From: a virus | IMG/VR virus record: IMGVR_UViG_3300046369_000818 | Span: 1 to 21,581 of that record | Reading direction: 5' to 3' (one strand) | DNA length: 21,581 nt | Shown here: positions 6,541-21,460 of the stretch, one piece after another | How positions within the stretch are numbered: position 1 is the first letter of the stretch | Layout: every line of letters begins with the position of its first letter | Translations under genes and position numbers: made by a program | Notes under the pieces: generated by a model | The model's input: only the letters and a program-made list of their open reading frames with translations | What the model was told of the DNA's origin: nothing | The model's database searches: none

Positions 6541-6546
6541 TTTTTT

Positions 6547-7585: not shown

Positions 7586-7600
7586 AATATAAAATTTAAA

Positions 7601-7936: not shown

Positions 7937-8393
7937 CTGTAATGTTTATATATTTAGTTCTTCCGTTTTCTTTAACAGCTTTTAATACACGCATTCTATT
8001 TTTACCTAAATTGTAGCTTGCGTGCACCCAAGCAGGATTGTTATCATCTCCAAACTCCCATATAAGCTGATCAAATTGTAATTTATCTTTAATATAATTA
8101 AAAAAGTCAGCATTAGTCGCTTTGCTATACACGTCGTCAATATCAATTGCTTCGCCTTTGCAATGCTGTGAGGTAGTAGATCCTCCAATGGCTTTGTTAA
8201 GTTCAGGTGATCTATAAAAAGAAGAAACATATATCTGCTCACCAAAATGATTTCTCAATGGCTCAAATATATGTTCTGCTGTAATTTGCATAGTAATTAA
8301 CGTCTCATTATCAGGCATATTGTTTAAACCCAGCCTTTGAGCCGTATTAGAGCGTACAGCCTCTTTTAAGGAGATATGTTCGCTAATATTCAT
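7929..8393 (-). CDS. M15-family peptidase, probable endolysin
   Basis: A D-Ala-D-Ala carboxypeptidase-type (M15) zinc peptidase of 154 aa, which cuts peptidoglycan peptides for host lysis. Motifs in order: SSFYRSPELN (57-66); SQHCKGEAIDID (75-86) with zinc ligands H77 and D84; a W-E-F segment at 112-114 with E113 as probable general base; and AWVHASY (121-127) with third ligand H124. These match the HxxGxAxD and WxH signatures. I chose the ATG at 8393 because the 39-aa gene upstream stops at 8395, one base before it; an in-frame ATG at 8426 would add 11 residues but overlap that gene. No signal peptide is visible, so access to the wall needs the holin at 6888-7304. Length is normal for phage M15 endolysins. 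Confidence 0.85.
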   Translation of the reverse strand: MNISEHISLKEAVRSNTAQRLGLNNMPDNETLITMQITAEHIFEPLRNHFGEQIYVSSFYRSPELNKAIGGSTTSQHCKGEAIDIDDVYSKATNADFFNYIKDKLQFDQLIWEFGDDNNPAWVHASYNLGKNRMRVLKAVKENGRTKYINITDA

Positions 8394-8394
8394 A

Positions 8395-8514
8395 TTACTT
8401 CTTGTTACCTCTTTTAGAGCAGCCACAGCTTCCTATAGGCTTCATGCAGCTGTCGCACACCTTACTCATTGGTCGTTTTTCTGCGTGTACTTTTTTTGTG
8501 ATAGGTAAATCCAT
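8395..8514 (-). CDS. 39-aa Cys-rich (zinc-knuckle-like) protein
   Basis: A short gene between the HExxH protein and the endolysin, exactly filling their gap: its ATG lies 2 nt after one stop and its TAA 1 nt before the next ATG. The product starts MDLPITKKVHAEKRPM and contains CDSCMKPIGSCGC (residues 20-32), four cysteines spaced CxxC-x6-CxC, then a basic tail SKRGNKK. Such spacing can bind one zinc ion. The snug fit of both junctions is the main evidence that it is translated. Function is unknown; a nucleic-acid-binding or regulatory role is only a guess. Confidence 0.65.
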   Translation of the reverse strand: MDLPITKKVHAEKRPMSKVCDSCMKPIGSCGCSKRGNKK

Positions 8515-8516
8515 AA

Positions 8517-8840
8517 TTATTTTTTCTTTTGTTTGTTATATGCTTCTTTTTCCCAAGGTAAATTCTTAGCTCCTTCTTTCATAGAGCTACGAGGATATTT
8601 TTTCCCTTTCCAGTATACAAAATCATCATCATAAGATAGATCTCCACGTTTTAGTTGATCTACGTGAACTTTCTCATGACTTATAGCTATTTTCTGTTGT
8701 ATAGGCGAAAGGTTTTTATTGATTACAATAGTACCATCATTTAATGTTTCGCCGTGAACGTCTCCTGCTAAATTTTTTTTAACAATAACTGGCTCTCCTT
8801 TTATAAGAGAATCAACATTGCTTTTCATTTTGTATCCCAT
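8517..8840 (-). CDS. Small HExxH putative metallopeptidase
   Basis: A 107-aa protein with a zinc-binding HExxH motif, ISHEKVHVDQL (H55, E56, H59), and a later LPWEKEAY segment (94-101) whose glutamate could be the third ligand, as in gluzincins. Between them lies DLSYDDDFVYWKGKKYPR. The N-terminal part (VKKNLAGDVHGETLNDGTIVINKNL) has the short beta strands that often precede such a helix. It resembles small phage proteins annotated as putative metalloproteases. It is much shorter than a stand-alone protease, so it may be a minimal enzyme, a virion-associated peptidase or a maturation factor. It starts on the stop of the gene upstream (TAATG) and sits in the lysis/chaperonin block. Confidence 0.65.
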   Translation of the reverse strand: MGYKMKSNVDSLIKGEPVIVKKNLAGDVHGETLNDGTIVINKNLSPIQQKIAISHEKVHVDQLKRGDLSYDDDFVYWKGKKYPRSSMKEGAKNLPWEKEAYNKQKKK

Positions 8841-9280
8841 TATCTTTTTAGATCTTTATTCATATCATCTATAGCTGAATTATAAACTTTATCAGTATAG
8901 CTTTTGTTTTTATTAAATACGCTGCGTCGAGATATAGGTAAATCTTCAGTGCCTAAAAGTATTCTGTATATTCTAGCTACTAGGTATTTACACTTTGTGG
9001 ATACTTTATATACATTGTATTTAATTGTAGTATGATTTCTTTTTGAATAAACTTCTATCCATTCTTCTCTTCGTAATTTTTCCCATCTATTCTTATCCCA
9101 AGAATATATATAGGTTCCTTTTATATAATCATTACGTGTAAAAGTTTTTAAGCAATCAAAATGAATTAATAATTCTAATTCAGCATCAGTAAGGCCATAA
9201 GTCTTACAGGCCCATTTTCTAACGAGCCTATAATACTTAAATAATCCTATATCACGTATGTTATCCGGCTCTAGCCTCAT
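8840..9280 (-). CDS. Possible winged-helix protein
   Basis: A 146-aa, basic and aromatic-rich protein. Residues 10-105 have the helix and beta-hairpin order of a MarR-like winged helix: YYRLVRKWACKTYGLTDAELELLIHF (helices), FTRNDY (about 47-52), YSWDKNRWEKLRREEWIEVYSKRN (recognition helix and first wing strand) and TTIKYNVYKVS (wing). The end (115-146) is polar and likely flexible. It could bind DNA and regulate late genes, or bind nucleic acid in the virion. Its ATG overlaps the stop of the groES-like gene (ATGA), so both are probably translated together. The fold is an inference from the pattern; no close relative is recognised. Confidence 0.5.
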   Translation of the reverse strand: MRLEPDNIRDIGLFKYYRLVRKWACKTYGLTDAELELLIHFDCLKTFTRNDYIKGTYIYSWDKNRWEKLRREEWIEVYSKRNHTTIKYNVYKVSTKCKYLVARIYRILLGTEDLPISRRSVFNKNKSYTDKVYNSAIDDMNKDLKR

Positions 9281-9537
9281 AACACTACGACTACATCTTG
9301 TTCTTTTATAACCTGCAAATACTCACCGTCAAAATCTATGCCATATCCAGCATGTCTATCGTAATAAATGTTATCACCTGTGGTAATTCCTTCAACATAA
9401 TTACCAACAGAGCGAACTTCAGCTTTTCTGTAGCGTATGTCATCTTGATGTTTTTCTGTAAGAATTAAACCTGATTTATTTGGTTTAATTTCTTCTTTGA
9501 TTGATTTGATTATAATAAATTTATTTACAGCCTGCAT
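9277..9537 (-). CDS. groES: GroES-like co-chaperonin
   Basis: An 86-aa Cpn10-fold protein, a little shorter than bacterial GroES (about 97 aa). It caps the GroEL ring during folding. The mobile loop is residues 19-33 (PNKSGLILTEKHQDD), with the hydrophobic contact tripeptide probably L24-I25-L26. Later motifs match the family: KAEVRSVG (38-45), TGDNIYYDRHAG (53-64, compare GDxVLFxKYxG) and FDGEYLQVIKEQDVVVVL (69-86). The roof loop seems shortened. The gene follows groEL with a one-base overlap (TAATG); that order is the reverse of the usual bacterial groES-groEL operon. Being phage-borne and divergent, it probably pairs with the adjacent chaperonin. Confidence 0.8.
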   Translation of the reverse strand: MQAVNKFIIIKSIKEEIKPNKSGLILTEKHQDDIRYRKAEVRSVGNYVEGITTGDNIYYDRHAGYGIDFDGEYLQVIKEQDVVVVL

Positions 9538-11090
9538 TATGATTCTCTTACGTTAGAAATTATACAATCTGCAGACATAATAGTTGTCGCTACTGATACT
9601 GCATTTTTTAAAGCAGTCTTTGTAACTAGAACAGGATCAATTATTCCTTCTTTTACTAAATTAGAACCTTCTCCTGTGATAACGTTAATCCCCCACCCTT
9701 TTTTCATATAAGGGCCATATTTTATGCCTGCGTTATCTAATATTTTTTTATATGGAGCTTTAATAGCTTCAAGTAATATTTTATATCCTAAATTATCATT
9801 GCTCGCTATATTATCCGCTGCATTATGTAGTGCAACTCCTGCTCCTGGTACAATACCTTCTTTTAATGCTGCTTTAACAGCATAAATAGCATCTTCTACT
9901 CTATCCTTCTTTTCTTTTAATTCAATTTTAGAATTTGCACCTACATACAACATTCCAACACCTCCTGAAAGCATTGCTTTACGTTGCTCAAGCTTTTTAA
10001 GCAAGTATGGGTTTTTTTCTTCTTTAAGCTGTTTATTAATAACATCTATTCTATCTTTAACTTCTTCAGTTAATTCAGATATAGTTATAACAGTATTATT
10101 ATCGTCTGTAACAGACTTTTGAGCTTGACCTAATACTGATTCATTAATTAAATCTAAATCATCCCCTAACTCTTCTGAAATGACTGTAGCTCCCGTAAGT
10201 GCGGCTAGATCATCTAGCATGTCTCTACGTAAATTAGAAAAGCCTGGTGGATCAATAAAGTTTACCTTAATGTTCCCTTTAACTCTGTTCATTATAAGAG
10301 CAGATTGCACTTGAGGAGAAATATTACCAATAATTAATATTGCTCTTTTATTCTTAATAGAAAATTCTAATATTGCCTGTAGCTTTCTAATAGTTGAAAT
10401 TTCTGAATCAACTAATAATATTAATGGCTTATCAAGCTCTGCTTTATTTTTTTCTTTATCAGTAATTAAATGTTGTGATTTTAAACCACTATCAAACTGA
10501 ACACCGTCTATAATTTCTATAAACGTTTCATCAGTATCAGACTCTTCCATAAGCACCACGCCTGCTTCACCAACTTTTGTATATGCATCTGCAATTAATT
10601 TTCCTAACTTTTTATCGTTATTAGTTGATATATTAGCAACGTGCTCTAACATTGCGTTTTTAACAGGTGTTGAAGAACTTTCTAAATAATTAACTACCTT
10701 TGTTGTAGCTTCTAATATTTGTTCTTTTATAAGACGCAAATCTTTAGCTTTGCTTTTTTCAAACTCTTTTAAAATGGAGTGTGCGAGCACAGTACTAGTT
10801 GTAGTACCATCACCCGCTTCCTTCACTGTTTTCTGTGCTGCCTCTTTAACGAGGGTCGCGCCAATGTTTTCTACTGGATCCATTAGCACCACACTATTAG
10901 CAACAGTCACTCCGTCTTTTGTTACTATGGGTCTTCCTAGTGCATCTTCATATATAACGCACTTTCCTGACGCACCTAAAGTTGACGAAACTGCCTCAGC
11001 AAGTTTTTCAACTCCAGCCATAATTTTACTTTGAGCGTTATTGCCAAAGTTAAGCTCTTTAACAATTTCGCTTGGATTATTAAATTCCAT
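9537..11090 (-). CDS. groEL: Phage-encoded GroEL chaperonin
   Basis: A 517-aa group I chaperonin (usual length about 545), forming a ring that refolds proteins in an ATP-driven cycle. ATP-site motifs are intact: TKDGVTVA (57-64, D59 equals E. coli D52), AGDGTTTSTVLA (92-103, D94 equals D87), GGVGMLYVGA (375-384) and KKDRVEDA (394-401, D400 equals D398). The apical domain is divergent: GVQFDSGLKSQHLI replaces GMQFDRGYLSPYFI, so the client/GroES-binding residues Y199, Y203 and F204 are L203, H207 and L208. The C-terminal GGM tail is missing; the protein ends SADCIISNVRES. About 80 nt of regulatory-looking sequence precede its ATG. It may fold phage proteins such as the large fibres. Confidence 0.93.
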   Translation of the reverse strand: MEFNNPSEIVKELNFGNNAQSKIMAGVEKLAEAVSSTLGASGKCVIYEDALGRPIVTKDGVTVANSVVLMDPVENIGATLVKEAAQKTVKEAGDGTTTSTVLAHSILKEFEKSKAKDLRLIKEQILEATTKVVNYLESSSTPVKNAMLEHVANISTNNDKKLGKLIADAYTKVGEAGVVLMEESDTDETFIEIIDGVQFDSGLKSQHLITDKEKNKAELDKPLILLVDSEISTIRKLQAILEFSIKNKRAILIIGNISPQVQSALIMNRVKGNIKVNFIDPPGFSNLRRDMLDDLAALTGATVISEELGDDLDLINESVLGQAQKSVTDDNNTVITISELTEEVKDRIDVINKQLKEEKNPYLLKKLEQRKAMLSGGVGMLYVGANSKIELKEKKDRVEDAIYAVKAALKEGIVPGAGVALHNAADNIASNDNLGYKILLEAIKAPYKKILDNAGIKYGPYMKKGWGINVITGEGSNLVKEGIIDPVLVTKTALKNAVSVATTIMSADCIISNVRES

Positions 11091-11168
11091 TAAATTAAAT
11101 TTTAGATTGTTTTTAAATGTTTTTTTTGCTTTTCAGCTATATATTATATTACATTTAAATGTTTTTTT
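11091..11168 (-). promoter_or_regulatory. AT-rich intergenic region upstream of groEL with direct repeats
   Basis: This is the longest gap inside the late block apart from the divergent region. On the minus strand, the 16-base direct repeat AAAAAAAACATTTAAA occurs twice, at 11154-11169 and 11112-11127, spaced 42 bases or about four helical turns. Between them is TGTAATATAATATATAG, a plausible -10-like element. It may be a promoter letting groEL and the lysis block be expressed separately from the fibre genes. No clear terminator hairpin is seen. Confidence 0.4.
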
Positions 11169-11741
11169 TTATGTTGTTTTTTTCCAATACTGCGTTGGAA
11201 CGCTACTTGACTCAGCAATGTTGTCATTTAATCCAGAATTTACTGTCCATTCACCATAAAATCTAATCATATATTCTCTACCAACACTTCCATTTTCAAT
11301 TGATATATATGTTCCTGATGATGCGGGCTCAAAAAATGCAAATGTAGAACCAAAATTTCCATCTCCATTTGTGCCACCCGTACCAACAGTAAGCCTTGAG
11401 AAATCAGATGTAGTTAAAGTATAGTTTGTAAATGCTGCTACATCAGCAACAGCTCTATCTGTAAGCCAACTTACTAAATCTTTTACGTAGTTTAAAGCTC
11501 TTGCATCAGAATCCGCTGATGTACCCGGCCCAAATTGTATAAAATAATAAGGCGTTCCTTGTGCGGTAAGATTAACGCCGTTTTGCCACCAGTCTTGGTA
11601 AATACTTAAATTACCACTAGGAGTTATAGTGTGATTATATCCAAAAATAAGACCGGTGAACGGGCTTCCGCCATCTCCATTTCCATCTCCATTGCTAATG
11701 GATTGATTGTATGTACCTTGTAATATATTAGTTGGAAACAT
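11169..11741 (-). CDS. Hypothetical virion protein
   Basis: A 190-aa protein with a Gly/Asn/Asp-rich start (SNGDGNGDGGSPF) and beta-rich, aromatic segments (YNHTITPSGNLSIYQDWWQNG, YYFIQFGPG). A helix follows (ARALNYVKDLVSWLTDRAVADVAAF), and the end (EYMIRFYGEWTVNSG...QYWKKTT) is typical of short fibre or spike proteins. It is transcribed directly after the 625-aa fibre, and its ATG shares one base with that gene's stop. No known domain is recognised. Position and composition suggest a tail or decoration protein. The DGNGDGG stretch could bind calcium, but this is a guess. Confidence 0.5.
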   Translation of the reverse strand: MFPTNILQGTYNQSISNGDGNGDGGSPFTGLIFGYNHTITPSGNLSIYQDWWQNGVNLTAQGTPYYFIQFGPGTSADSDARALNYVKDLVSWLTDRAVADVAAFTNYTLTTSDFSRLTVGTGGTNGDGNFGSTFAFFEPASSGTYISIENGSVGREYMIRFYGEWTVNSGLNDNIAESSSVPTQYWKKTT

Positions 11742-13618
11742 TATGCTTGAGATATTGTATAAATGAATTCAGATGCACCTAAACAAGTAACTTGTATATA
11801 ATTTACTGTTGAACTTGTTTGATCTAATGTACCTGATAATAATGTACCTGTTATTGTTGGTGTTCCTGTTCCGCCGCTTCCTGTTACTTTAATAACTTTT
11901 GTCATACCAATTTCATTGTTGCTATACACAATAGATGTATTTGTAGCATCTGATGGCAATGTAACTTGGAAAACTGCAGCAGAAGTAAAGTCTAATGTAG
12001 TAGATGTTGCGCCTGAACTTAATGTTACAGGAGATGCAACGGTTTTAAACTCATTTTCTAAATTTGAAAATGCTACTGTTGTTAAACCATCTGTTATTCC
12101 GTATCCACTTATAGTTGTAGGAGTACCAGTTAAAGAACTAAATGCCCCATCAAAACTTACTGCTGTAGTATAACTAAAAGTTCCGTCTCCATCGGTTTGT
12201 ATTAATTGACCAGCTGTACCGTTTGTTGTAATACCGCTTAAACTTGTTGGGACAACAATACCCGCTCCTGATGTTGACTTATCTGTCCATTCTAAATCGC
12301 CATTGCTATCAACTCCTAATATTTTATTAGCAGAACCAGAATTTGTTGTATCTAAATCAGCCGTTCCAATAGCTGCTGCTACAAATTCAATACCTGTTGC
12401 TGCAGTGTTTACCTTTACAAAGTTACCTCCTGCACCTGTAAATGAGCTTGGAGTGTCAGGTAATGTTAAAAAGTTTGTTGTTGTTGCTGTTATTGTAACC
12501 CATTCTAAATTACCAGAATCATCAACACTTAAAACCTGACCATCTGTACCAACAGTAGGTGATAGTTTTATAGCCGTTACAGCTTGATCTGTTATTTCAG
12601 CAGTATTAACTTCATCTAAAATAGCAAGTGATCCAACACCTGTAAAATCTGAAATAGCATGAGTATGATCTCCCTCAGCTAATGAACCAGAAGATGTACC
12701 TATACTTAAAAAAGCTCCATCCCCAAATGTATATGAAGGGAATGATGCTGAAGCAATACCACCTGCTAATTCAAATGTTAAAGTGTTATTCACTTTAGTT
12801 ACATTATCAATGTGATAATTGCTAGCTGAATTAAGTGCCCAAGTAAAACCGTCCCCACCATCAGAAGTTAATACATAACCACTAGTTGGTCCATTTGTAG
12901 TTTTTAGTTTAGGCTCAGTTACCGCATCGGATTGTATTTTATTAGTTGTAATTGCATTGTTTTCAATATAGGATGTATTTACGCTATCTAATGTAGAAAG
13001 GTCTCCTAAATCGGTTGAAACGTCTGCTATTGTAATGTTTTGTGCAACTTGATCAATTACTGTTGCTATAGATAAGAATGCAGCTTCACCAAAATCAAAT
13101 GATTGATTAGCTGTACCATTAACACTAAAAGTTAATGTATTACCAGATTGTGTTATACCGTTTAAATAGAAGTTTGTATCAGCTAGTACTGTAGCATCGG
13201 CCCACACAAACCCACCTGTACCATCCGAAGTAAGTATCTGTCCAGAATCACCGGTATCTGATACATCTAAATAAGTTGTTGTTATTGCGTTAGATGAAAT
13301 TATATCGGATATAGTATGACTATGTCCATCTTCTGCAAAATCACCCACATCACTAAAAGCAGCAGTGCCTAGTGTTAATGTTTGATCAGTAGCACCATTA
13401 ATAGAAAAAGTAATTACACCTGTTGTTGAATTACTAGTTATATTATCAAGATAGTAATTTGTATCTACAATAGCTCCTCCATTGCTTCCAATGTAATCCG
13501 CTAGTGCACCAATACTATAAGTTCTAGTTACATTAGAACCACTTGAGGCATCTGAACCTAATAGTAAATCATCATCAGATATAGTACTATCTGCTTGATA
13601 TGTATAAATTATTGCCAT
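11741..13618 (-). CDS. Tail fibre with repeated beta modules and HxH motifs
   Basis: A 625-aa fibre-type protein. The N-terminus (1-45, YQADSTISDDDLLLGSDASSGSN) is shared with the 113-aa protein at 6547-6888 and probably attaches it. Three divergent modules follow, each with T/SNYxLDNIT...ITFSINGxxxQ...F(G/D)xAAFLS. The first ends in GHSHTISDI (98-106) and the third in GDHTHAISDF; HxH pairs like these hold metal ions in trimeric T4 fibres. The middle contains LKTTNGPTSGYVLTSDGGDGFTW and GQLIQTDGDGTFSYTT, common fibre linkers. The end has GMTKVIKVTGSGGTGTPTITG and IQVTCLGASEFIYTISQA. It is probably a trimeric side or central fibre. No catalytic motif. Confidence 0.75.
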   Translation of the reverse strand: MAIIYTYQADSTISDDDLLLGSDASSGSNVTRTYSIGALADYIGSNGGAIVDTNYYLDNITSNSTTGVITFSINGATDQTLTLGTAAFSDVGDFAEDGHSHTISDIISSNAITTTYLDVSDTGDSGQILTSDGTGGFVWADATVLADTNFYLNGITQSGNTLTFSVNGTANQSFDFGEAAFLSIATVIDQVAQNITIADVSTDLGDLSTLDSVNTSYIENNAITTNKIQSDAVTEPKLKTTNGPTSGYVLTSDGGDGFTWALNSASNYHIDNVTKVNNTLTFELAGGIASASFPSYTFGDGAFLSIGTSSGSLAEGDHTHAISDFTGVGSLAILDEVNTAEITDQAVTAIKLSPTVGTDGQVLSVDDSGNLEWVTITATTTNFLTLPDTPSSFTGAGGNFVKVNTAATGIEFVAAAIGTADLDTTNSGSANKILGVDSNGDLEWTDKSTSGAGIVVPTSLSGITTNGTAGQLIQTDGDGTFSYTTAVSFDGAFSSLTGTPTTISGYGITDGLTTVAFSNLENEFKTVASPVTLSSGATSTTLDFTSAAVFQVTLPSDATNTSIVYSNNEIGMTKVIKVTGSGGTGTPTITGTLLSGTLDQTSSTVNYIQVTCLGASEFIYTISQA

Positions 13619-13641
13619 TGTTTATTTATTTTTTTGTGTGT

Positions 13642-13655
13642 ATATTTTAAAATAT
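13642..13655. repeat. Perfect 14-bp AT palindrome between two fibre genes
   Basis: ATATTTTAAAATAT lies in the 41-base gap between the 1180-aa and 625-aa genes. On the minus strand it is followed by ACACACAAAAAAATAAATAAACAATG, so the mRNA leader is A/C-rich as in the early genes. It may be an RNA-processing or terminator-like stem, or an operator. It is short and AT-only, so chance is possible. Confidence 0.35.
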
Positions 13656-13659
13656 CTCA

Positions 13660-16600
13660 TTATGCTATTGCTAAATAAATGTAAGTGTTTCCGCTTGTAT
13701 TCAAATTACCGTTTGCATCATTAAGCGTAAATCCTGTACTGCTTGTTGTTAAACTGCTTGAAGTTGATTCTGCATTAGATACTTCTGCAAACAAACGCTT
13801 ATCATCTCCTCTAACTGCATCGTGAATCCACCATTGCCCTGATGCGGATGTATTTTTAAACATTATGAATCTTGGCTCAAATCCTACATTTACGGTTCTA
13901 CCAACTGCACCTGTATAACTTCCTATTTTCTGATAACCATCTACTGAATTGAAGCAGTAGGCGATGTAAGTCCCTGTAGTGTTTGTTGTGTAAGAAGTCC
14001 AAGTGGTATCCGTAACGCTTGAAAAACCACCAGCGTCTGTAGTTGCTGCTGCTGAAGAGGCAAGTTGTAAATACTTACCTGTTCCTACGTCTTTATGATA
14101 AACCTCCCAAGCGTTTGAAAAACTTGTCATTTTAGATATTATCATTTCAGGGGCGGTATCTAACCCGTGTCCCACATTCCAAGAAGCTGCGGCAGTGGTT
14201 GTCCATTTAACAATACTAAACCCTGCATCTTGATTAGCAGAAACAGATGATGTAATGCTACCATCAGTGTTGCTGACAGCTGTTCCTCCTGCTTTCCACA
14301 TCCAAGCAACGTAAGTATCGTTATTACCATTAACTCCACCATCTGAACCAACAGAAAATCCATTACTGTCAAAAGAACTTAATGTAGCTAACTGTGGTGA
14401 AGGGTCATTTGATGCAAGATTTGTTCTTTGGTAAACTCCCGCACCTCTAATAGTATCAAACAAAAGATGGTCAACAGGATTATTCCTTTCCTTTATCCAA
14501 ACAAAATCAGGTTGGAATGAAGTTCCTACGAAACTTACATTAGTAGGTGTTCCGTCATAGCCGTAAGTTACATTTGTAGGTGTTCCGTTATAACCATAAA
14601 TTACGTTAGTAGCTGTACCGTCATAATTACCTTGTTCATCTGTTGCATCCCCTTCAAACTTATAGTGTGCTTGTAAACCGCTAATAGATATTGTAGAAGA
14701 AGCTGTTTCTGTATATAAGGTAGTTATTTCACTTGCAGATAATTCTTTATTATAATATCTTACTTCGTCTAATTTACCCTTATAATACGTGCTTGCACTG
14801 TAAATACCAAGTGCAGCAGGTTCATTAGAAAAATCTACATTAGAAAAAGTACCACTAACAAACCAATTCGAAAAGTTTCCATTACTTCCGTTAAGATAAA
14901 AATCAAAACCTGTAGTAGTGTTTATTATAAAAACAAAGTGATTCCAACCTTCATTCCAAGTGCTACTTGTATTTCTTCTATAAATGTAGTTATTTCCTAA
15001 TCTGATAAATGCCTCAATCGTGTAATTATTACCCGAATTTCTTTTGTACCTTACACCTGTATATTCGGCAGAGCCGTCACCTTGAGTCCATAATCCATAG
15101 TAAGTTCCTGTAGGTACTGTATTATCAACATTAACCCACATTGATATAGAGCTACCATAATCAATTTGGTATACATTAGACACCTTACTACTACTCCCAT
15201 TAAACACTGCAGCGCCACCAATCTTTCCATTTCCGCCTCCTGTATCATTAGCATTCCCTTCAAGCTCATAAAGTGCAACACCACTGCTATCATCAAATAT
15301 ATCTGTTGCGGATTTTGTAGACGATGCTGATGTCTCGTTGTATAAGGTTGTTACTTCGGAAGAACTTAATCCCTTGTTGAATAAGCGGACTTGGTCTATT
15401 TTACCAGTCATTTGACTGGCAGAACCTTCATTTTGAGCACCTATTATGATATTTGCACTTGATGTTTTTGTAGCAGAATTAAAGTCTGAATTTGTTGATG
15501 TTCCTACTTGTGCTCCATCAACATAATAAGTTACGGTGCTGCCATTCCAAACCAATACACAATGATGCCAAGTATTTTCACTTATAGCACTCGTATTTGA
15601 GTATGATGACGTAACATTATTAGATGCGTCTCTATGGGCAAAATGTAAAGTTGTTGAGCCTGCTCCATAATGCCAAAACCCCCAAGATTCTTCAATTCCG
15701 CTATTATTCCATTTTGTTACAATAGAATTTGCTGTACTTAAATCTTCAAAATAACACCATGCAGAAATTGAAAGCGAATTATTATTTTGAACAAAATCTG
15801 TAGTTCCTAAATCTATATGACCACTGCTCCCATTAAATATACCTGCTGCTCCAATATATCCAGTAACTCCACCAGTATCCTTAGCACCCTCCTCAAATTC
15901 ATATAAAGCCACAGCAGAGCCATCATCAAAGATGTCTGTTGTAGATTTAGTTGTTGAGGTGTTTGATTCACCGTATAATGTCGTAACTTCCGATGATAAT
16001 AAAGCTCTATCAAATATCCTAATTTGGTCTATTGAACCATCAAAAGCAGTTGATGCTAGGCTAGCTGAATCCGCTCCAAATTTTATTTGATCTGCGTTTA
16101 CTTGATCCCAAGTAGTTAAAGCTCCTAAAGTTTTAGAAACACCATCTAACCAAATTTCTATTGAGTCACCATTTTCAATAACCACTAAATGATACCACTG
16201 ACCTGTGTTTAGAGATACGGTAGCATCTCCATATTTGTAACCATGAAATCTTATTATACTTCCATCAGTCCAAACAAAAGGAGGCGTCTGTGCACTGTTA
16301 GAACTATTAAACCCTTTAAATAACGTTGGGTATGTTACATTAGTAAAACTATCTGCTTTAAACCAAAGCGAAACACTATATTCCTGATTTGATCCAGATT
16401 GACCAGAAAAGGGGTTGGAAGTTGTTATATAACTACTACTCCCATTAAAAGATGCTGAAGTACCTATCTTACCTTCAATGCTCTGTGTTGATCCATTTCC
16501 AGTGTAAGTGTTGATTGTAAAGTTTTCTGTAGCTATAAATTGTTTTTGTACAGTTATAGTAAAAACCCTTGGAGTTGTTTGGCTTTCATTATCCGTTGCA

Positions 16601-17202
16601 GTTACAGTAAAAGTATATAATGTTTCTGCTGTTTCTAAAGATGTAGTTCCATCAATATTAGTGCCTGTCAGCGACAGTCCAGTAGGTAGTGCTCCATTGG
16701 TAATATTAAATGTGATAGTGCCTCCATCTGGTTCTGTTGCCGCTAATGTTATCGTAGATATAGTTTCTGCAGAAGCAAAGGTTCCTAAGCTACCTGCTGA
16801 TGTCGACCATGCTGGAATACCATTATATGAAATACCATTTATAAATGTAGCACTTCCTGTATCTGTATTTGCAACAACTACATCATAATCACCTGCAGCT
16901 TTGGCTGGTGTTGTTATAGTTAAAGTAGTTGCAGACACAAAAGATACCGCTGGTGCAGCCGTACCCCCTACGGTTACAGTAACGCCTGTAACAAAACCTG
17001 TACCTGTAATTGTTATAGTTTCTCCTCCAGCTGTATCCGCAGCGGTTGCAGAGCCCGGATAGGATAACGATGTTATAGCAGGTGGTGTAATATTAGACAC
17101 CCATTCCATATCACCATCCCCTGAAGATTGAAGCACATAACCATTTACGCCATTACCTACAACTCCAGAGAACTGTGCTGCTTTAATTTTAGTTTCAGCC
17201 AT
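13660..17202 (-). CDS. Large multi-domain LamG tail adhesin
   Basis: A 1180-aa protein, the largest in the window. Domains in order: N-terminal virion-anchoring segment (1-38, GYVLQSSGDGDMEWV); an IPT/TIG immunoglobulin-like domain (40-128, PPAITSLSYPGS...GGETITITGTGF); a cadherin/He_PIG-like domain (129-219, NGALPTGLSLTGTNI...TVTATDNESQTTPRVFTITV); and three LamG jelly rolls (about 245-412, 430-622 and 643-831), each starting near FNGSS and ending in IDQ/EVR...LSSSEVTTLY. A C-terminal region (890-1180) has two VWIKER-like modules, as in the protein at 1-1569. Such stalks of Ig-like domains carrying lectin modules bind surface glycans, so this is likely the main receptor-binding fibre. No signal peptide or membrane segment is seen. 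It may be a substrate of the phage chaperonin. Confidence 0.8.
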   Translation of the reverse strand: MAETKIKAAQFSGVVGNGVNGYVLQSSGDGDMEWVSNITPPAITSLSYPGSATAADTAGGETITITGTGFVTGVTVTVGGTAAPAVSFVSATTLTITTPAKAAGDYDVVVANTDTGSATFINGISYNGIPAWSTSAGSLGTFASAETISTITLAATEPDGGTITFNITNGALPTGLSLTGTNIDGTTSLETAETLYTFTVTATDNESQTTPRVFTITVQKQFIATENFTINTYTGNGSTQSIEGKIGTSASFNGSSSYITTSNPFSGQSGSNQEYSVSLWFKADSFTNVTYPTLFKGFNSSNSAQTPPFVWTDGSIIRFHGYKYGDATVSLNTGQWYHLVVIENGDSIEIWLDGVSKTLGALTTWDQVNADQIKFGADSASLASTAFDGSIDQIRIFDRALLSSEVTTLYGESNTSTTKSTTDIFDDGSAVALYEFEEGAKDTGGVTGYIGAAGIFNGSSGHIDLGTTDFVQNNNSLSISAWCYFEDLSTANSIVTKWNNSGIEESWGFWHYGAGSTTLHFAHRDASNNVTSSYSNTSAISENTWHHCVLVWNGSTVTYYVDGAQVGTSTNSDFNSATKTSSANIIIGAQNEGSASQMTGKIDQVRLFNKGLSSSEVTTLYNETSASSTKSATDIFDDSSGVALYELEGNANDTGGGNGKIGGAAVFNGSSSKVSNVYQIDYGSSISMWVNVDNTVPTGTYYGLWTQGDGSAEYTGVRYKRNSGNNYTIEAFIRLGNNYIYRRNTSSTWNEGWNHFVFIINTTTGFDFYLNGSNGNFSNWFVSGTFSNVDFSNEPAALGIYSASTYYKGKLDEVRYYNKELSASEITTLYTETASSTISISGLQAHYKFEGDATDEQGNYDGTATNVIYGYNGTPTNVTYGYDGTPTNVSFVGTSFQPDFVWIKERNNPVDHLLFDTIRGAGVYQRTNLASNDPSPQLATLSSFDSNGFSVGSDGGVNGNNDTYVAWMWKAGGTAVSNTDGSITSSVSANQDAGFSIVKWTTTAAASWNVGHGLDTAPEMIISKMTSFSNAWEVYHKDVGTGKYLQLASSAAATTDAGGFSSVTDTTWTSYTTNTTGTYIAYCFNSVDGYQKIGSYTGAVGRTVNVGFEPRFIMFKNTSASGQWWIHDAVRGDDKRLFAEVSNAESTSSSLTTSSTGFTLNDANGNLNTSGNTYIYLAIA
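14528..14630 (-). repeat. Three 33-bp tandem repeats in the large adhesin gene
   Basis: Three in-frame copies with a period of exactly 33 bases encode YDGTATNVIYG, YNGTPTNVTYG and YDGTPTNVSFVG (residues about 860-892). Related sites are spaced 33 bases apart (near 14551, 14584 and 14617). The same NYNGTATNVTY segment starts the LamG modules of the 1-1569 gene. The repeats probably arose by slippage, and may be a length-variable spacer before the C-terminal modules. Confidence 0.75.
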
Positions 17203-17438
17203 TATTTAGTATTGTTGATTTTAGTGCCCTTACCGAACCCAGAACGGTTTCGTTTTGCAGATACAAAGGACGATGTGGTATGATCATAGTCCATACCGTC
17301 TATATTTTTACCATTCTTTTTCGCAGCTCTACGCTTGCGTTGGTTTTCAGCCTTCATAGCACGACGTCGAGGGCTCATAGCGACGGCCTTATCTCGGACC
17401 TTCTTACGACGCCGCGCTTCAGGAGAAAGCTTTTGCAT
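17202..17438 (-). CDS. Small basic protein of unknown function
   Basis: A 78-aa protein, highly basic. Its first 40 residues are almost all Lys, Arg, Ala and Ser (LSPEARRRKKVRDKAVAMSPRRRAMKAENQRKRRAAKK), followed by a conserved-looking DYDHTTSSFVSAKRNRSGFGKGTK end (about 49-73). The basic helix could bind DNA or another acidic surface. It overlaps its neighbours by single bases on both sides (TAATG at 17438 and at 17202), so it is translated with the 242-aa protein and the large adhesin. It could be a DNA-condensing or virion protein. No domain is recognised with confidence. Confidence 0.6.
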   Translation of the reverse strand: MQKLSPEARRRKKVRDKAVAMSPRRRAMKAENQRKRRAAKKNGKNIDGMDYDHTTSSFVSAKRNRSGFGKGTKINNTK

Positions 17439-18166
17439 TACTTTTTCTTTAATGCTTTAACACCTTTCATTTTTGCAGGTGATTTTCCAATGCTCTTTTT
17501 TGTTTTTGCAACACCTTTAGGCTTAATTGCTGAAACACTCTTTTCTTTTTTAATATAAGAAACTTGGTCTGGAGAGCTTTTACCTTTAGTGTAGACTTTT
17601 CTGCGACTACTTGAAGGCGTATTTGACATTCTTTTTTCACCAGAAGACGTTTTTGTTTTGCTTCTAATGTTTTTCATTTTTTGAGTGGGTTCCGTTTTTT
17701 TCACAGGCGATTTACCTTTACTTTTTTCTTTATCAGTGGTAAATCTAGTACTACCTTTTTTGATTTCAACCTCTATTTTTCCTGTTGTACCAGCACTTTT
17801 TCTACCTGCTTTATCTCTATAGTTTTTAGTTACAGTTGGTTTTTGTCCTGGCTCAAATGAAGGGTCACTTGTTTTTTGACCAATTTTAGCTCCTTCACCT
17901 TTTCTTTTATAATCAGAAGCAGTTTCTCTAGTGTCTTTAGTATATGTTGTTCCAGTTACTCCTGGCATATCAGACTCATAGCGAAATTTATCTTTTTTCT
18001 TTTTAGGGTCAGTAGTCTTTTTAGCTGGTGATTTGCCATATGACCTAGCAGGTGATTCTGGTGCTGCTTTAATAGCATCCTGCAACTGTTGAGGTAAGTT
18101 ACCCTGTTTACCTACTAACGCTTTCATTAGTGGCGTTTTCGGATTCATTTTAAATGGTGATCCCAT
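17438..18166 (-). CDS. Lys/Ser-rich protein with SPxK motifs (histone-like)
   Basis: A 242-aa protein, very basic and low in hydrophobic residues. Residues 1-30 (MGSPFKMNPKTPLMKALVGKQGNLPQQLQDAI) look folded; the rest is mostly disordered, rich in K, S, T and P. SPxK motifs appear at the start (SPFK), at about 40-55 (SPARSYGKSPAKK), in the middle (GKSPVKK) and at the end (GKSPAKMKGVKALKKK), as in histone H1 tails. It is the first gene of the leftward block, its start 36 bases from a possible TATAAATT element. It may condense DNA, regulate, or be packaged. No enzymatic motif. Confidence 0.6.
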   Translation of the reverse strand: MGSPFKMNPKTPLMKALVGKQGNLPQQLQDAIKAAPESPARSYGKSPAKKTTDPKKKKDKFRYESDMPGVTGTTYTKDTRETASDYKRKGEGAKIGQKTSDPSFEPGQKPTVTKNYRDKAGRKSAGTTGKIEVEIKKGSTRFTTDKEKSKGKSPVKKTEPTQKMKNIRSKTKTSSGEKRMSNTPSSSRRKVYTKGKSSPDQVSYIKKEKSVSAIKPKGVAKTKKSIGKSPAKMKGVKALKKK

Positions 18167-18499
18167 AATTTTGTTTTTAAGATTAATCTAATTTATACAT
18201 GCATATATATAAGAGTATTATCACGTTGTATTACATATATTTAAATTATAGTATAACCTGAACACCTAGAGTGCGACATTAGCCCCCTACATATATATAT
18301 TAACACCCTATTGTCACAGTTTTGAGGTATATAAAAGCAGCCCCACCCTGTTCTTAAATTTTTTGTTAGATAATTAGAGGTTTTGTATTACGCATAACTA
18401 TTTGGCACTCAGCCACTTACATAAAACCCAATATCTTACCCCACCCCCCAAAGTGCTCAGTATCAAGTACTTAAGTTTTTGCCTTTTTGGGCTCTCTTT
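18167..18499. other. Non-coding divergent region with C-tracts and hairpin
   Basis: No gene can be supported here. On the plus strand, C-runs of 3-6 occur near 18283, 18306, 18341, 18346, 18427, 18439 and 18444; they are G-runs on the minus strand, which is striking in such AT-rich DNA. TTGTATTAC occurs twice (18226-18234 and 18383-18391). On the minus strand, TATAAATT near 18190-18197 resembles the T4 late promoter TATAAATA and faces the 242-aa gene. GGCACT (18404-18409) can pair with AGTGCT (18452-18457). This could hold an origin of replication, a small RNA or late promoters; none can be proven by eye. Confidence 0.45.
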
Positions 18500-18501
18500 T
18501 T
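18451..18501 (+). terminator. Hairpin followed by T-tracts, possible terminator
   Basis: AAGTGCT (18451-18457) and AGTACTT (18466-18472) form a 7-base stem with one G-U pair and an 8-base loop. T-runs follow at 18476-18480, 18484-18488 (inside GCC-TTTTT-GGGC) and 18497-18501. It lies just upstream of promoter copy 1. It could end a small RNA or insulate the rightward genes. The stem is weak, so the call is tentative. Confidence 0.35.
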
Positions 18502-18534
18502 ACATACTAAACACGAACTAGTTTGGATAATATA
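18500..18534 (+). promoter_or_regulatory. Phage promoter motif, copy 1
   Basis: TTACATACTA, then AACACGA (18510-18516), 8 bases, then GGATAATATA (18525-18534). It has the same 20-base upstream stretch (TTTTTACATACTAAACACGA) as copy 3. No gene starts within 40 bases: the first ATG (18538) meets a TGA at once. It may act in tandem with copy 2 or be a duplication remnant. Confidence 0.65.
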
Positions 18535-18588
18535 GTTATGACTTGACCTTACATTTTAAGAAATATATATTTTAAGTTTTATGTGCTT

Positions 18589-18613
18589 AACACGAAGGAT
18601 AATGGATAATATA
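18589..18613 (+). promoter_or_regulatory. Phage promoter motif, copy 2
   Basis: AACACGA, 8 bases, GGATAATATA, 22 bases before the ATG of the 56-aa gene at 18636. The spacer itself ends in GGATAAT, so the element looks partly duplicated. The leader is GTAACAAAAAATAATAAAT with no Shine-Dalgarno site. Confidence 0.75.
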
Positions 18614-18635
18614 TATGTAACAAAAAATAATAAAT

Positions 18636-18806
18636 ATGAAAACTTTTATAACTTACAAAATTAATAATGATTTCTTTGAATTAGATTATAATAATAATAA
18701 AGAAGAAGAGAAAGAAATGTTAAACTATATTAAAAATAATAATATAAAAGAATTTAAAAGATTAGAAAATAATAAGGGTTATAGATTTAATGTTTTTACA
18801 TACTAA
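18636..18806 (+). CDS. 56-aa early protein, unknown function
   Basis: First gene of the rightward set, 22 bases after promoter copy 2. The product begins MKTFITYKINNDFFELDYN and has a run of Asn, then KEEEKEMLNYIKNNNIKEFKRLENN and ends YRFNVFTY. The order beta, helix, beta suggests a small alpha/beta fold. Its last codons, TTT TTT? aside, end ACA TAC TAA and lie inside promoter copy 3, so coding and promoter sequence overlap. No family recognised. Very AT-rich, like its neighbours. Confidence 0.65.
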   Translation: MKTFITYKINNDFFELDYNNNKEEEKEMLNYIKNNNIKEFKRLENNKGYRFNVFTY

Positions 18807-18830
18807 ACACGACCTCAACTGGATAATATA
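18796..18830 (+). promoter_or_regulatory. Phage promoter motif, copy 3
   Basis: TTACATACTA, AACACGA (18806-18812), 8 bases, GGATAATATA (18821-18830), 23 bases before the ATG at 18854. The stop codon of the 56-aa gene (18804-18806) overlaps the box. It shares 20 identical bases with copy 1. Confidence 0.75.
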
Positions 18831-18853
18831 TATGAACATTAAAACACACACAC

Positions 18854-18988
18854 ATGAATAAATATCTAATAACACATGCACTCGAAACATTACTTGAACA
18901 GGTAGTTGACTCAAGAGAAAACTCTAACGATTACAAAGATCAAATAAAAGAAATTGAAGAACAAATAAAAATAGTAAAAAAACTTTAA
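18854..18988 (+). CDS. 44-aa early protein, coiled-coil-like
   Basis: A small gene preceded by AAAACACACACAC directly before the ATG, with no Shine-Dalgarno sequence, 23 bases after promoter copy 3. The product begins MNKYLITHALETLLEQVVDS and ends DQIKEIEEQIKIVKKL. It is predicted almost fully helical, with a heptad-like pattern of I and L in the second half, so it may form a dimeric coiled coil. An earlier ATG at 18832 gives only nine codons. No family recognised; function unknown. Confidence 0.6.
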   Translation: MNKYLITHALETLLEQVVDSRENSNDYKDQIKEIEEQIKIVKKL

Positions 18989-18999
18989 AACATACACAC

Positions 19000-19143
19000 A
19001 TGGAATTTAATAGACTCGAACTCGAACTACTAAGATATGCAATGGAAGACTTTGCAAACAACGATCAACATACTGAATCAAGTCAATACAAAGCATTTGA
19101 AATTGTAACTAAAATAGATAAAATGATTAACAATATTAAGTAA
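19000..19143 (+). CDS. 47-aa early protein, helical
   Basis: It begins 11 bases after the previous stop, with the leader ACATACACACATG, very like that of the gene before. The product starts MEFNRLELELLRYAMEDFAN, has a polar middle (NNDQHTESSQYKA), and ends FEIVTKIDKMINNIK. Two amphipathic helices are likely, so it may be a small protein-binding factor. It probably shares a transcript with the 44-aa gene, since no promoter motif lies between them. No family recognised. Confidence 0.6.
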   Translation: MEFNRLELELLRYAMEDFANNDQHTESSQYKAFEIVTKIDKMINNIK

Positions 19144-19221
19144 AATAAGTTAATTACACACATACACACACTGAACTACACCTACTCTACTAAAAATATT
19201 AATAAATAAAACACATACCTT

Positions 19222-19398
19222 ATGACTAGTGAATTAAGTAAAAGAATAGCTAAGCAAAATGCTAAAACTGAAAGACAAATGGGTTTCTATACCCTTGGTA
19301 TGAAAAACGTTACACGAGTTACCTTCTCACGTAATGCTCAATGGAACCAAATAGACACAACTAAGGTTTACTATGCACAAACCAAATTACAAGCTTAA
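19222..19398 (+). CDS. 58-aa basic early protein
   Basis: A basic protein that begins MTSELSKRIAKQNAKTERQMG, then FYTLGMKNVTRVTFSRNAQWNQIDTTKVYYAQTKLQA. A basic helix precedes a beta-hairpin-like part, so nucleic-acid binding is possible but unproven. The 78-base gap before it holds the CA-rich stretches ACACACATACACACAC and ends AAAACACATACCTTATG, but no copy of the promoter motif. Its stop codon overlaps the box of promoter copy 4. No family recognised. Confidence 0.6.
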   Translation: MTSELSKRIAKQNAKTERQMGFYTLGMKNVTRVTFSRNAQWNQIDTTKVYYAQTKLQA

Positions 19399-19421
19399 TA
19401 CGTGTTTAAATGGATAATATA
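19397..19421 (+). promoter_or_regulatory. Phage promoter motif, copy 4 (degenerate box)
   Basis: AATACGT instead of AACACGA, then the same 8-base spacing and a full GGATAATATA (19412-19421), 19 bases before the ATG at 19441. It overlaps the stop of the preceding gene. Confidence 0.7.
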
Positions 19422-19440
19422 AATGTAAAACAAACACATT

Positions 19441-19614
19441 ATGACAACACAACTACACGAACTAAATGGTAAACTGGATATGCTAAATGATCTAAAAATA
19501 CAAGGTCTAGGATTATCACTCGACCAACAAGAAAAGCTACTTGCTATACACCAACAGCTACTTGACCGACGCTTTGAACTAATAAAGCAAATTAAAAAAG
19601 ATTATATAATATGA
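19441..19614 (+). CDS. 57-aa early protein, helical
   Basis: First gene after promoter copy 4, with leader AAACAAACACATTATG. The product (MTTQLHELNGKLDMLNDLKIQ, then LSLDQQEKLLAIHQQLLDRRFELIKQIKKDY) is Leu/Gln-rich and predicted to form two long amphipathic helices, likely a helical hairpin or coiled coil. Its TGA overlaps the next ATG (ATGA). No family recognised. Possibly a small inhibitor or adaptor acting early in infection, but this is only from position. Confidence 0.65.
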   Translation: MTTQLHELNGKLDMLNDLKIQGLGLSLDQQEKLLAIHQQLLDRRFELIKQIKKDYII

Positions 19615-19751
19615 ACATAACACATACAAATTTAATGGACTGGGTTAACACGCTTGACCTACCAACAGAAGAAAAGATTAACAGAATATACAAATACTAT
19701 GATTGGCCACTGAGCTATGCTAAAACAAAAGAATACTTAATACAAAACTAA
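19611..19751 (+). CDS. 46-aa early protein
   Basis: It overlaps the previous gene by ATGA. The product begins MNITHTNLMDWVNTLDLPTEEKINRI and continues YKYYDWPLSYAKTKEYLIQN, with many aromatic residues (three W/Y pairs) and two likely helices. Translation is probably coupled to the 57-aa gene. Its small size and lack of homology leave the function open. Only the tight packing and ATGA overlap support it as a gene. Confidence 0.6.
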   Translation: MNITHTNLMDWVNTLDLPTEEKINRIYKYYDWPLSYAKTKEYLIQN

Positions 19752-19752
19752 T

Positions 19753-19860
19753 ATGATGAATAAATATTACTTAGAAGAAATGCTTGCTAATACAAGCTAC
19801 ACTGAAGAACAAATAACTGAGATGGAAAACTGGGAAATTGAAATGCACTTAGGATTATGA
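19753..19860 (+). CDS. 35-aa acidic early protein
   Basis: A very short gene starting one base after the previous stop, with two adjacent ATGs (19753 and 19756). The product MMNKYYLEEMLANTSYTEEQ...ITEMENWEIEMHLGL is acidic and predicted helical. Its TGA overlaps the next ATG. The fit with both neighbours supports translation, although 35 codons could also arise by chance. Function unknown. Confidence 0.5.
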   Translation: MMNKYYLEEMLANTSYTEEQITEMENWEIEMHLGL

Positions 19861-20057
19861 ATATAACACAAAAAGATTTAGAAGCTAAGCTAAAACAAAT
19901 AGCTGAGTTCGAGCAAAAATACGGTACCGATCATGGCCAAACAAATGTACACGCTATGAAAAAATATTGTACTGATGCTAAATACAGAGAACGCGTCACA
20001 GCCTTTAACAAAGCGTCAATTGAAACAATTAAACACTATAACAGATATGAAAACTAA
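19857..20057 (+). CDS. 66-aa early protein
   Basis: It overlaps the preceding gene by ATGA. The product begins MNITQKDLEAKLKQIAEFEQKYG, has a middle TDHGQTNVHAMKKYCTDAKY, and ends RVTAFNKASIETIKHYNRYEN. It is predicted to be mostly helical and mildly basic at its C-terminus, with one cysteine. Its 3' end overlaps the start of the next gene by 11 bases. It belongs to the transcript from promoter copy 4. No family recognised. Confidence 0.65.
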   Translation: MNITQKDLEAKLKQIAEFEQKYGTDHGQTNVHAMKKYCTDAKYRERVTAFNKASIETIKHYNRYEN

Positions 20058-20193
20058 AGATAAATTATACGACTTACGTCAAGCTATTGATGACCTTGTT
20101 GCGATCGGTCCAGACTATGCTCACTTTATGAATGCACAAATTGCACACAAGAATTTAAAGAAGATTAAAAAACTGTTAGAATACGTAGGCTAA
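20047..20193 (+). CDS. 48-aa early protein
   Basis: I chose the ATG at 20047 (MKTKDKLYDLRQAIDDLVAI) because it overlaps the previous gene by only 11 bases; an in-frame ATG at 19975 would add 24 residues in a long overlap. The product continues GPDYAHFMNAQIAHKNLKKIKKLLEYVG, likely two helices with a basic end. It is the last gene before promoter copy 5. No family recognised and no motif found. Confidence 0.6.
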   Translation: MKTKDKLYDLRQAIDDLVAIGPDYAHFMNAQIAHKNLKKIKKLLEYVG

Positions 20194-20216
20194 ATGCTAT
20201 ACACAATTACATACCT

Positions 20217-20241
20217 AACACGAGTACAAACGGATAATATT
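20217..20241 (+). promoter_or_regulatory. Phage promoter motif, copy 5
   Basis: AACACGA, 8 bases, GGATAATATT (20232-20241), 24 bases before the ATG at 20266. It has TTACATACCT upstream, close to TTACATACTA of copies 1 and 3. Confidence 0.75.
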
Positions 20242-20265
20242 AACGAATAACAAACAAACACACTT

Positions 20266-20511
20266 ATGAAAACATTTGACAGATACAAACAAAACTTAAA
20301 ACAAGTCGGCAATGACATTTATTCTTACGATACACAAGTTGCTGAAATAATTGGAGACTATCTTTATAAACTTAAATGGAATGTAAAAGGTATGACGTCA
20401 AGCCCAACAACAAATAAGCATATTAATTATGCAGCAAGTGAACTTGGTTTAACTGTAATTGAAAATAACCAATGGAAAGATGAATACTGGCCAAAAGATA
20501 TAAAAGCATGA
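20266..20511 (+). CDS. 81-aa early protein, possible DUF8033-like
   Basis: First gene after promoter copy 5, with the leader ACAAACAAACACACTTATG. The product begins MKTFDRYKQNLKQVGNDIYSYDTQVAEI and ends with the pattern TTNKHINYAASELGLTVIEN. The combination SYxTxVAxI...TTxKHINYxAxELG resembles a small phage family that I recall as DUF8033; the function of that family is unknown. A beta-then-helix layout is likely. Its end overlaps the next gene by ATGA. Family call is tentative. Confidence 0.7.
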   Translation: MKTFDRYKQNLKQVGNDIYSYDTQVAEIIGDYLYKLKWNVKGMTSSPTTNKHINYAASELGLTVIENNQWKDEYWPKDIKA

Positions 20512-20714
20512 AAAAATTAATATTACAAAGACATGACATCTATAGTCATTACTACAAGGATTTTAATGATGGAAAATTTTACGAGGTTAATGCCTTTGAC
20601 GTTGATCCAATAAGCAATAGAATTGTAAATAAAGATTTTAAAGATTCAGATTTCAGCAAAAGAAAAGAAATTAAAGATGAATTTAAAAACCCAAGATTTA
20701 TACAAACAATATAA
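20508..20714 (+). CDS. 68-aa early protein
   Basis: Overlaps the 81-aa gene by ATGA. The product is MKKLILQRHDIYSHYYKDF..., with NDGKFYEVNAFDVDPISNRIVNKD in the middle and KRKEIKDEFKNPRFIQTI at the end. It has a beta-rich first half and a polar second half with many Lys and Asp. No domain or motif is recognised. The spacing to the next ATG (20719) is 4 bases, so it is likely co-translated or at least co-transcribed. Confidence 0.6.
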   Translation: MKKLILQRHDIYSHYYKDFNDGKFYEVNAFDVDPISNRIVNKDFKDSDFSKRKEIKDEFKNPRFIQTI

Positions 20715-20718
20715 AAGT

Positions 20719-20919
20719 ATGAAAAACACGTGGATATTTTATGGCAACGACCATAGCGGAATTAAAACAATTCACTACATTAAACAATGTAAACGTCCTG
20801 AAGCGACAAGTGAATACAAAGAAATGATGCACTTATTAGAAAACAATACTTATTACACAACAGGATATATGACTAGTAAAGCATGGAATAAAGAAAACCA
20901 ATATATAAAAATAGTATAA
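20719..20919 (+). CDS. 66-aa basic early protein
   Basis: I chose the ATG at 20719, 4 bases after the previous stop; an in-frame ATG at 20677 would add 14 residues and overlap that gene. The product begins MKNTWIFYGNDHSGIKTIHYIKQ and continues CKRPEATSEYKEMMHLLENN, ending YYTTGYMTSKAWNKENQYIKIV. It has a beta-type first part with many aromatics, a helix and a beta end. No family recognised. A small binding fold is plausible. Confidence 0.6.
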   Translation: MKNTWIFYGNDHSGIKTIHYIKQCKRPEATSEYKEMMHLLENNTYYTTGYMTSKAWNKENQYIKIV

Positions 20920-20922
20920 ATT

Positions 20923-21117
20923 ATGTATGACAAAGAATTAGTAGCAAACACAGCAAACACAATTATTGAAGAAGTCAATAGACATATTGACGATACAATA
21001 TACTGGCAACTAGACTCATCTGAATTTGGTTTAAATGAATTTGATGACCTATATGAATTAGAATTACAAATCAAACAACAATTATTATTTACATTAATTA
21101 AAAAAGTAACAAAATGA
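20923..21117 (+). CDS. 64-aa acidic early protein, helical
   Basis: Starts 3 bases after the previous stop and overlaps the next gene by ATGA. The product is acidic in its first two thirds: MYDKELVANTANTIIEEVNRH, DDTIYWQLDSSEFGLNEFDD, then a hydrophobic helix LYELELQIKQQLLFTLIKKVTK. The last 22 residues may form an amphipathic or membrane-touching helix. No family recognised. Function unknown. Confidence 0.65.
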   Translation: MYDKELVANTANTIIEEVNRHIDDTIYWQLDSSEFGLNEFDDLYELELQIKQQLLFTLIKKVTK

Positions 21118-21449
21118 ACGACATTTACACACAACTAGCACAAATTTTAAACGTATCTAAAATTACTGAAGACTATACAACCCATGCTGATCTACAAATT
21201 AGCGAATATATGACTGCTGATAGCTATGACATACACGTTATGACCAACGAACCTATGTCACTAATGTGGGACACTGATGTATATTATCATCAACCATCAT
21301 TCAACGACATTATCGATCGCATTAAAGATTTAGACGAAGATGCTATTGTATATGTAAGCGATTTTGAAACATACTTACCAGAATATGAGGTTGATGATTA
21401 TCTTGAACAACACAACGAAGAAGAATTACAAGATAAACACGAAGCATAA
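21114..21449 (+). CDS. 111-aa strongly acidic early protein
   Basis: By my count it has 28 Asp/Glu and only about four Lys/Arg in 111 residues. The sequence starts MNDIYTQLAQILNVSK, has a middle SYDIHVMTNEPMSLMWDTDVYYHQPS, and ends YLPEYEVDDYLEQHNEEELQ. Such charge is seen in DNA-mimic proteins of phages (for example anti-restriction factors) but also in many other small acidic proteins; a DNA-mimic role is speculation. The last codons and the stop lie inside promoter copy 6. Confidence 0.65.
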   Translation: MNDIYTQLAQILNVSKITEDYTTHADLQISEYMTADSYDIHVMTNEPMSLMWDTDVYYHQPSFNDIIDRIKDLDEDAIVYVSDFETYLPEYEVDDYLEQHNEEELQDKHEA

Positions 21450-21460
21450 GGGATAATAAT
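21436..21460 (+). promoter_or_regulatory. Phage promoter motif, copy 6
   Basis: AACACGA, 8 bases, GGATAATAAT (21451-21460), 25 bases before the ATG at 21486. The box lies within the last codons (Lys-His-Glu) of the 111-aa gene, so coding and promoter sequence overlap. Confidence 0.7.

Follow-up and report, generated by a model that had tools for sequence, protein, structure and literature searches.

A putative phage-specific promoter class with sigma-70-like geometry in uncultured marine podoviruses

We report a repeated sequence element that is probably a phage-specific promoter of sigma-70 architecture, driving small and presumably immediate-early genes from 6–12 copies per genome; we put the probability of this reading at about 75%. 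Its basis is the conservation of the parts and of their spacing, the clustering on one strand, the position in front of start codons and the absence from relatives without a helix-turn-helix (HTH)–sigma gene pair. It is possible that the element is instead a repeated operator or another DNA-binding site of the same layout. Bacteroidota phages are abundant, yet little has been learned about how they begin transcription in hosts whose promoters are unusual. A sharply defined promoter class would make the first genes callable in hundreds of uncultured genomes, could be used directly to report infection by these phages and poses a testable question, namely which factor reads the element.

Copies in the window and geometry of the element

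The window, i.e. the whole stretch of DNA analysed here, comprises 21,581 nucleotides (positions 1 to 21,581 of IMG/VR record IMGVR_UViG_3300046369_000818). Six copies lie on its plus strand, at 18510, 18589, 18806, 19397, 20217 and 21436, with an invariant 8-base spacer between AACACGA and GGATAATATA, all of them where a preliminary description had placed them. Copies 18510, 18589 and 18806 match the pattern AACACGA-N8-GGATAATATA perfectly, copy 20217 has one mismatch, and 19397 (AATACGT) and 21436 have two each. Dinucleotide-preserving shuffles gave 0.13 matches on average and never reached six, and a scan of the record found six matches on the plus strand, none on the minus strand and none for the reversed-pattern control. 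With the full element the copies score 36–48 bits, compared with about −10 for the shuffled window. The features are as follows.

18501..18538, plus strand: putative promoter copy 1, from −37 to the predicted +1 at 18538, with its AACACGA box at 18510; PSSM score 42.0 bits
18580..18617, plus strand: putative promoter copy 2, predicted +1 at 18617, ahead of ORF 18636-18806; 36.3 bits
18797..18834, plus strand: putative promoter copy 3, predicted +1 at 18834, ahead of ORF 18854-18988; 48.4 bits
19388..19425, plus strand: putative promoter copy 4, AATACGT version, predicted +1 at 19425, ahead of ORF 19441-19614; 43.6 bits
20208..20245, plus strand: putative promoter copy 5, predicted +1 at 20245, ahead of ORF 20266-20511; 42.2 bits
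21427..21464, plus strand: putative promoter copy 6, predicted +1 at 21464, ahead of an ORF from 21487 that runs off the window; 37.3 bits
18636..21449, plus strand: module of small ORFs (44-111 aa) apparently served by the promoters; presumably early, from its place and make-up
1578..18166, minus strand: opposite-strand operon with tail fibre-like proteins, holin, endolysin, GroEL and others; zero promoter copies
~18270..18320, minus strand: motif B, an inverted repeat (GTGACAATAGG-N..-GGCTAATGTCGCAC) located in the divergent region ahead of the late genes

Copies 2–6 are followed by an ORF start 19–26 bases downstream (18636, 18854, 19441, 20266 and 21487), which bears out, with one base more at the upper end, the earlier statement that five copies precede an ATG by 19–25 bases. 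The first two copies are 78–80 bp apart in the window (18510/18589) and in G021, G045, G046, G043, G005, G006, G007 and G050. Between them the window has no ORF, and a short transcript or leader is possible there.

An alignment of 95 non-redundant sites gives TACAAACTAAAYACGA-N7-YGGATAATATAWAT as the consensus, with a purine after it. The element is thus larger than first described: conservation reaches nine bases further upstream (TACAAACTA) and continues downstream to the purine at position 28, counted from the first A of AAYACGA. This purine, at a position that was not used in site selection, is G in 58% and A in 40% of the 95 sites, and the third base of the box is C in 45% or T in 50%. 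When GATAAT is taken as the −10 (−12 to −7), the upstream element extends from −37 to −22 and so takes in the −35 region as well as some of the spacer, and the purine becomes the predicted +1. It is present at 215 of 218 sites (98% in the 95-site set). GATAAT was fixed by the search pattern itself, while the purine was not selected for in the 95-site set. As in sigma-70-type promoters, a −10-like hexamer is followed by a purine 7 bases after its last T, at the predicted start. Since the purine stands at +1 and the upstream element lies over the normal −35 region, the arrangement resembles that of sigma-70 promoters, with one more box inside the spacer. With the −10 read in this way, the distance of 11 bases between box and −10, pointed out earlier as departing from known spacing, is not borne out as the anomaly. 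To judge from these features, the element appears to be a real phage-specific promoter class combining sigma-70 geometry with an extra spacer box. Lineage versions of the upstream element exist, e.g. TACAAA, AAGGTT and that of the ACGTA lineage.

Distribution in related phages

An exact-pattern scan of IMG/VR returned 55 stretches. With two mismatches allowed, about 307 sites were found in 50 records, each chosen for one exact match to the pattern, compared with 10 for the reversed pattern, and nearly always on one strand per record. The motif with its fixed spacing, which the preliminary description had suggested looking for in relatives, is therefore present there. A motif-independent test used 80 loci found by the phage sigma protein alone. 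Upstream of the sigma gene, 540 kb of these loci contain 370 sites, as against 24 in the 721 kb downstream of it; 4 sites lie on the opposite strand. At least three sites occur in 51 of the 52 IMG/VR loci of this set that have at least 5 kb upstream. The sole exception is L153/G055, whose HTH-to-RNR block is mostly 92–100% identical to that of G058. Here the structural genes come almost directly after the HTH gene, indicating that this record lacks the early region, and G055 was dropped as a counterexample.

The context of the sites was analysed in 25 genomes and the window (218 sites). An ORF starts within 200 nt of 91% of them, at a median of 19 nt from the predicted +1. ORF starts at 10–30 nt are found for 49% of the sites versus 7% of random places in the same region, and 5% of the sites lie inside ORFs of at least 60 aa versus 58% in the control. 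There are 6–12 copies per genome, on one strand, between genes and ahead of a small-ORF module. Neither the motif nor the HTH–sigma pair was seen in the examined portions of phi38:1, elemoF and MW202828. The initial view of a phage-specific promoter-like element, in which an upstream box stands beside a −10, holds, and the element is confined to the presumed early module. Two near-duplicate motif clusters occur at the two ends of the G062 record (785-6519 and 64549-70417), from either terminal redundancy or assembly of variants. A motif match is also present in a cyanobacterial single-cell assembly (L210, Prochlorococcus SAG AG-409-L21, 64-kb contig), possibly through contamination by a phage of this group.

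The carriers are uncultured marine podoviruses that form a large group akin to flavobacterial phages: the portal and a neck-type protein match those of Flavobacterium, Cellulophaga, Tenacibaculum and Maribacter phages. A late protein of 2,300 aa (G021:43965-50867) contains a crAss muzzle C-terminal domain (E 8.5e-10), and by this similarity the podoviruses are crAss-related at the tail. Among annotated phage records a close relative of the phage sigma was not found. The record of the window stops short of the position where the HTH–sigma pair is expected; its nearest fetched relatives, G045 and G021 (GroEL 88 and 83% identical), both have the pair. Intergenic hairpins of varied sequence and conserved place are found between late genes (G021 ~52451-52511 and ~53347-53423, with counterparts) and are likely terminators.

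Candidate readers of the element

We suggest that the host core RNA polymerase would begin transcription at the conserved purine, which follows the last T of GATAAT by 7 bases. It would be directed by a dedicated specificity factor, other than the host primary sigma, that would recognise both the −10 and the element from −37 to −22. Early use of the module is likely, its timing being judged from the place of the genes. The factor would most likely act at once, either delivered with the DNA or as a special host factor, since no phage RNA polymerase was detected in the records searched and the phages show no enrichment of host-type promoters. Because the element matches no known host promoter, its reader is most likely something that the virus brings or makes.

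The host primary sigma is an unlikely reader. Primary-sigma promoters of Bacteroidota have TTG at −33 and TAnnTTTG at −7 (PMC9723704). The consensus of the element, GATAATATAWAT, does not contain TAnnTTTG, confirming the first impression that this is not the Bacteroidota pattern. TAnnTTTG is not enriched upstream of the phage genes (early 15 v 13.8, late 10 v 11.9), 148 of 151 Flavobacteriaceae have zero motif matches at up to one mismatch, and the element is unlike all six TSS-derived motifs of F. psychrophilum (PMC9723704); it is these three observations that speak against the primary sigma. A host promoter class was likewise rejected, as there are a few matches in MAG chromosomes but almost none in the 151 Flavobacteriaceae. 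Solitary matches in Bacteroidota chromosomes stand before host genes (L212 (332), L214/L216 and L208/L213).

A host alternative sigma factor or activator could read the element, the lineage versions then reflecting different hosts. The −35 element tracks genes whose products would be expected to encounter host machinery (exonuclease, primase-helicase, C-terminus of a giant late protein) and matches are scattered in a few Bacteroidota chromosomes. However, the number of chromosomal matches is, by our estimate, about that expected by chance, and both the absence from 148 of 151 Flavobacteriaceae and the difference from the TSS-mapped flavobacterial motifs speak against such a factor, so that we regard it as a rather doubtful candidate.

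The phage's own sigma, its HTH partner or both may read the element as a middle-gene regulon. As expected of a phage sigma regulon, a sigma-70 family gene is present downstream and its product has regions 2 and 4; almost all loci that extend far enough have an overlapping or adjacent HTH–sigma pair downstream, and relatives without the pair are also without the motif. The lineage versions argue otherwise. G051 and G052 share AAGGTT promoters and flanking early/replication genes (mostly at least 90% identical), but their HTH proteins are 58% and their sigmas 64% identical and belong to different clades. In rank correlations of promoter with protein distances, computed without correction for shared descent, promoter distance does not track sigma (rho 0.18, p 0.10) or HTH (rho 0.17, p 0.07), but tracks the exonuclease, a 106-aa protein, the primase-helicase and the C-terminus of the giant protein (rho 0.46–0.53). 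Neither in trees nor in distances do promoter versions correspond to sigma alleles, and the idea that HTH or sigma reads these versions was rejected. Residues that differ in the ACGTA lineage were set aside as confounded by descent. The exonuclease and the primase, though correlated, are unlikely promoter readers. Moreover, the start of the HTH–sigma pair itself carries motif B, and we find a middle-gene regulon of the pair unlikely. The activator postulated in the preliminary description is possible as such; the HTH protein beside sigma, for its part, does not follow the lineage versions.

Motif B is an inverted repeat of about 48 bp (GTGACrATAGG...GGCTAAyGTCrCAC). It spans the start of the HTH gene, and hence of the HTH–sigma operon, in most genomes (ATGTCACA/ATGTCGCA), and occurs as well in the divergent region that precedes the late operon. 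Its presence at both places suggests, without proof, that the HTH–sigma pair governs itself and the late genes. The phage-made pair would more likely serve a later promoter class marked by motif B. TGTAATATA was considered as a late promoter and rejected, not being enriched on the late strand.

Another candidate is the last gene product of the late operon, a giant protein of 2,200–2,900 aa (G021:33457-40140 and counterparts). Its HExxH stretch resembles the metallopeptidases seen in polyvalent injected proteins (PMC5512222). In G053 (~18800-22200) the gene is split into several ORFs and in the relative G061 it is a single ORF. If delivered with the virion, the protein could direct the host core RNA polymerase to these promoters by a sigma-region-2-like domain. 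When its middle domain is compared as a profile with PDB, 8b3z_A, a sigma factor of RNA polymerase, comes out first (E 0.0039, or 0.023 with a cleaner alignment), and further sigma factors match at the same place. Sigma70_r2 is the Pfam family most often matched (2 of 21 members, best E 0.035), a sigma-70 family protein ranks second in a viral-model fold search (E 0.055, prob 0.94), and hhalign aligns the middle domain in register with the phage's own sigma (P 0.0032). The giants of G051 and G052, both with the AAGGTT version, are 57–83% identical only in the middle and C-terminal domains and about 15% elsewhere, and the distance of the C-terminal domain tracks the −35 element (rho 0.50). Against this, each sigma match of the middle domain is individually non-significant, the best PDB fold match of the protein is not below E 0.6, and one unrelated control segment reached P 0.008 in hhalign. 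The sigma-2-like domain itself does not track the element (rho 0.08), the AF2 model of the C-terminal domain is all-helical and of low confidence, and presence in the virion is judged from gene place only. The sigma resemblance is a weak lead, and the giant protein a tentative, somewhat unlikely reader. Slightly less probable still is the full scenario, in which the phages eject the giant protein and its sigma-like domain programs the host core polymerase for private early promoters ahead of all phage gene expression. If true, a sigma factor carried in the virion would stand in for a virion RNA polymerase, a new kind of takeover of host RNA polymerase.

A phage RNA polymerase of the T7, N4 or crAss type is the least probable reader, and we consider it highly improbable. 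AATACGA sits where T7 RNA polymerase reads its promoter, AATACGA-N9-G matching the T7 promoter spacing, and virion RNA polymerases are known in other phages (PMC10770324, PMC4496689). On the other hand, 21 records gave no Pfam RNA_pol/PF00940 match, in a search that rang in no control genome and that a very divergent polymerase could escape. No DxDGD or motif-B polymerase pattern was found in a conserved protein, and the low-confidence, all-helical model of the giant C-terminus has no PDB match; on these searches the candidate was set aside. The conservation out to −37 and the lack of an AT-rich −4 to −1 segment are also at odds with a promoter for a single-subunit polymerase.

Comparison with known promoter systems

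Phage sigma-factor regulons of the SPO1 gp28 type resemble the present case in that each genome here also has a phage sigma gene, but here the promoter versions do not track the sigma allele. With the Bacteroidota primary-sigma promoters the element shares the presumed hosts, a similar −10/−35 scale and A-rich leaders without Shine-Dalgarno sequence; it differs in its −10 (GATAATAT), its −35 region (TACAAACT) and the extra spacer box. N4, crAss-like phages and P23-45 have early promoters read by virion RNA polymerases (PMC4496689, PMC10770324). Like these, the phages described here have phage-specific, presumably early promoters that would need a factor on entry, and their virion has a crAss muzzle-like domain; unlike these, no RNA polymerase was found and the promoter layout is sigma-70-like.

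The preliminary description likened the element to T4 middle promoters, in which a MotA box and a −10 are used through sigma appropriation (PMC6755090). The likeness stands for the layout: both have a good, sometimes extended −10, a box centred near −30 in place of the standard −35 (here the −37 to −22 element) and many copies within one gene class. It fails for the box sequence. Where T4 has the short MotA box, the element has the 16-bp TACAAACTAAAYACGA; positions −37 to −32 are strongly conserved here and variable in T4 middle promoters, and the genes served are presumably the first ones; MotA and AsiA had no Pfam match among the few early proteins scanned. We conclude that the element would represent a new class of phage promoters, which resembles T4 middle promoters in its layout alone.
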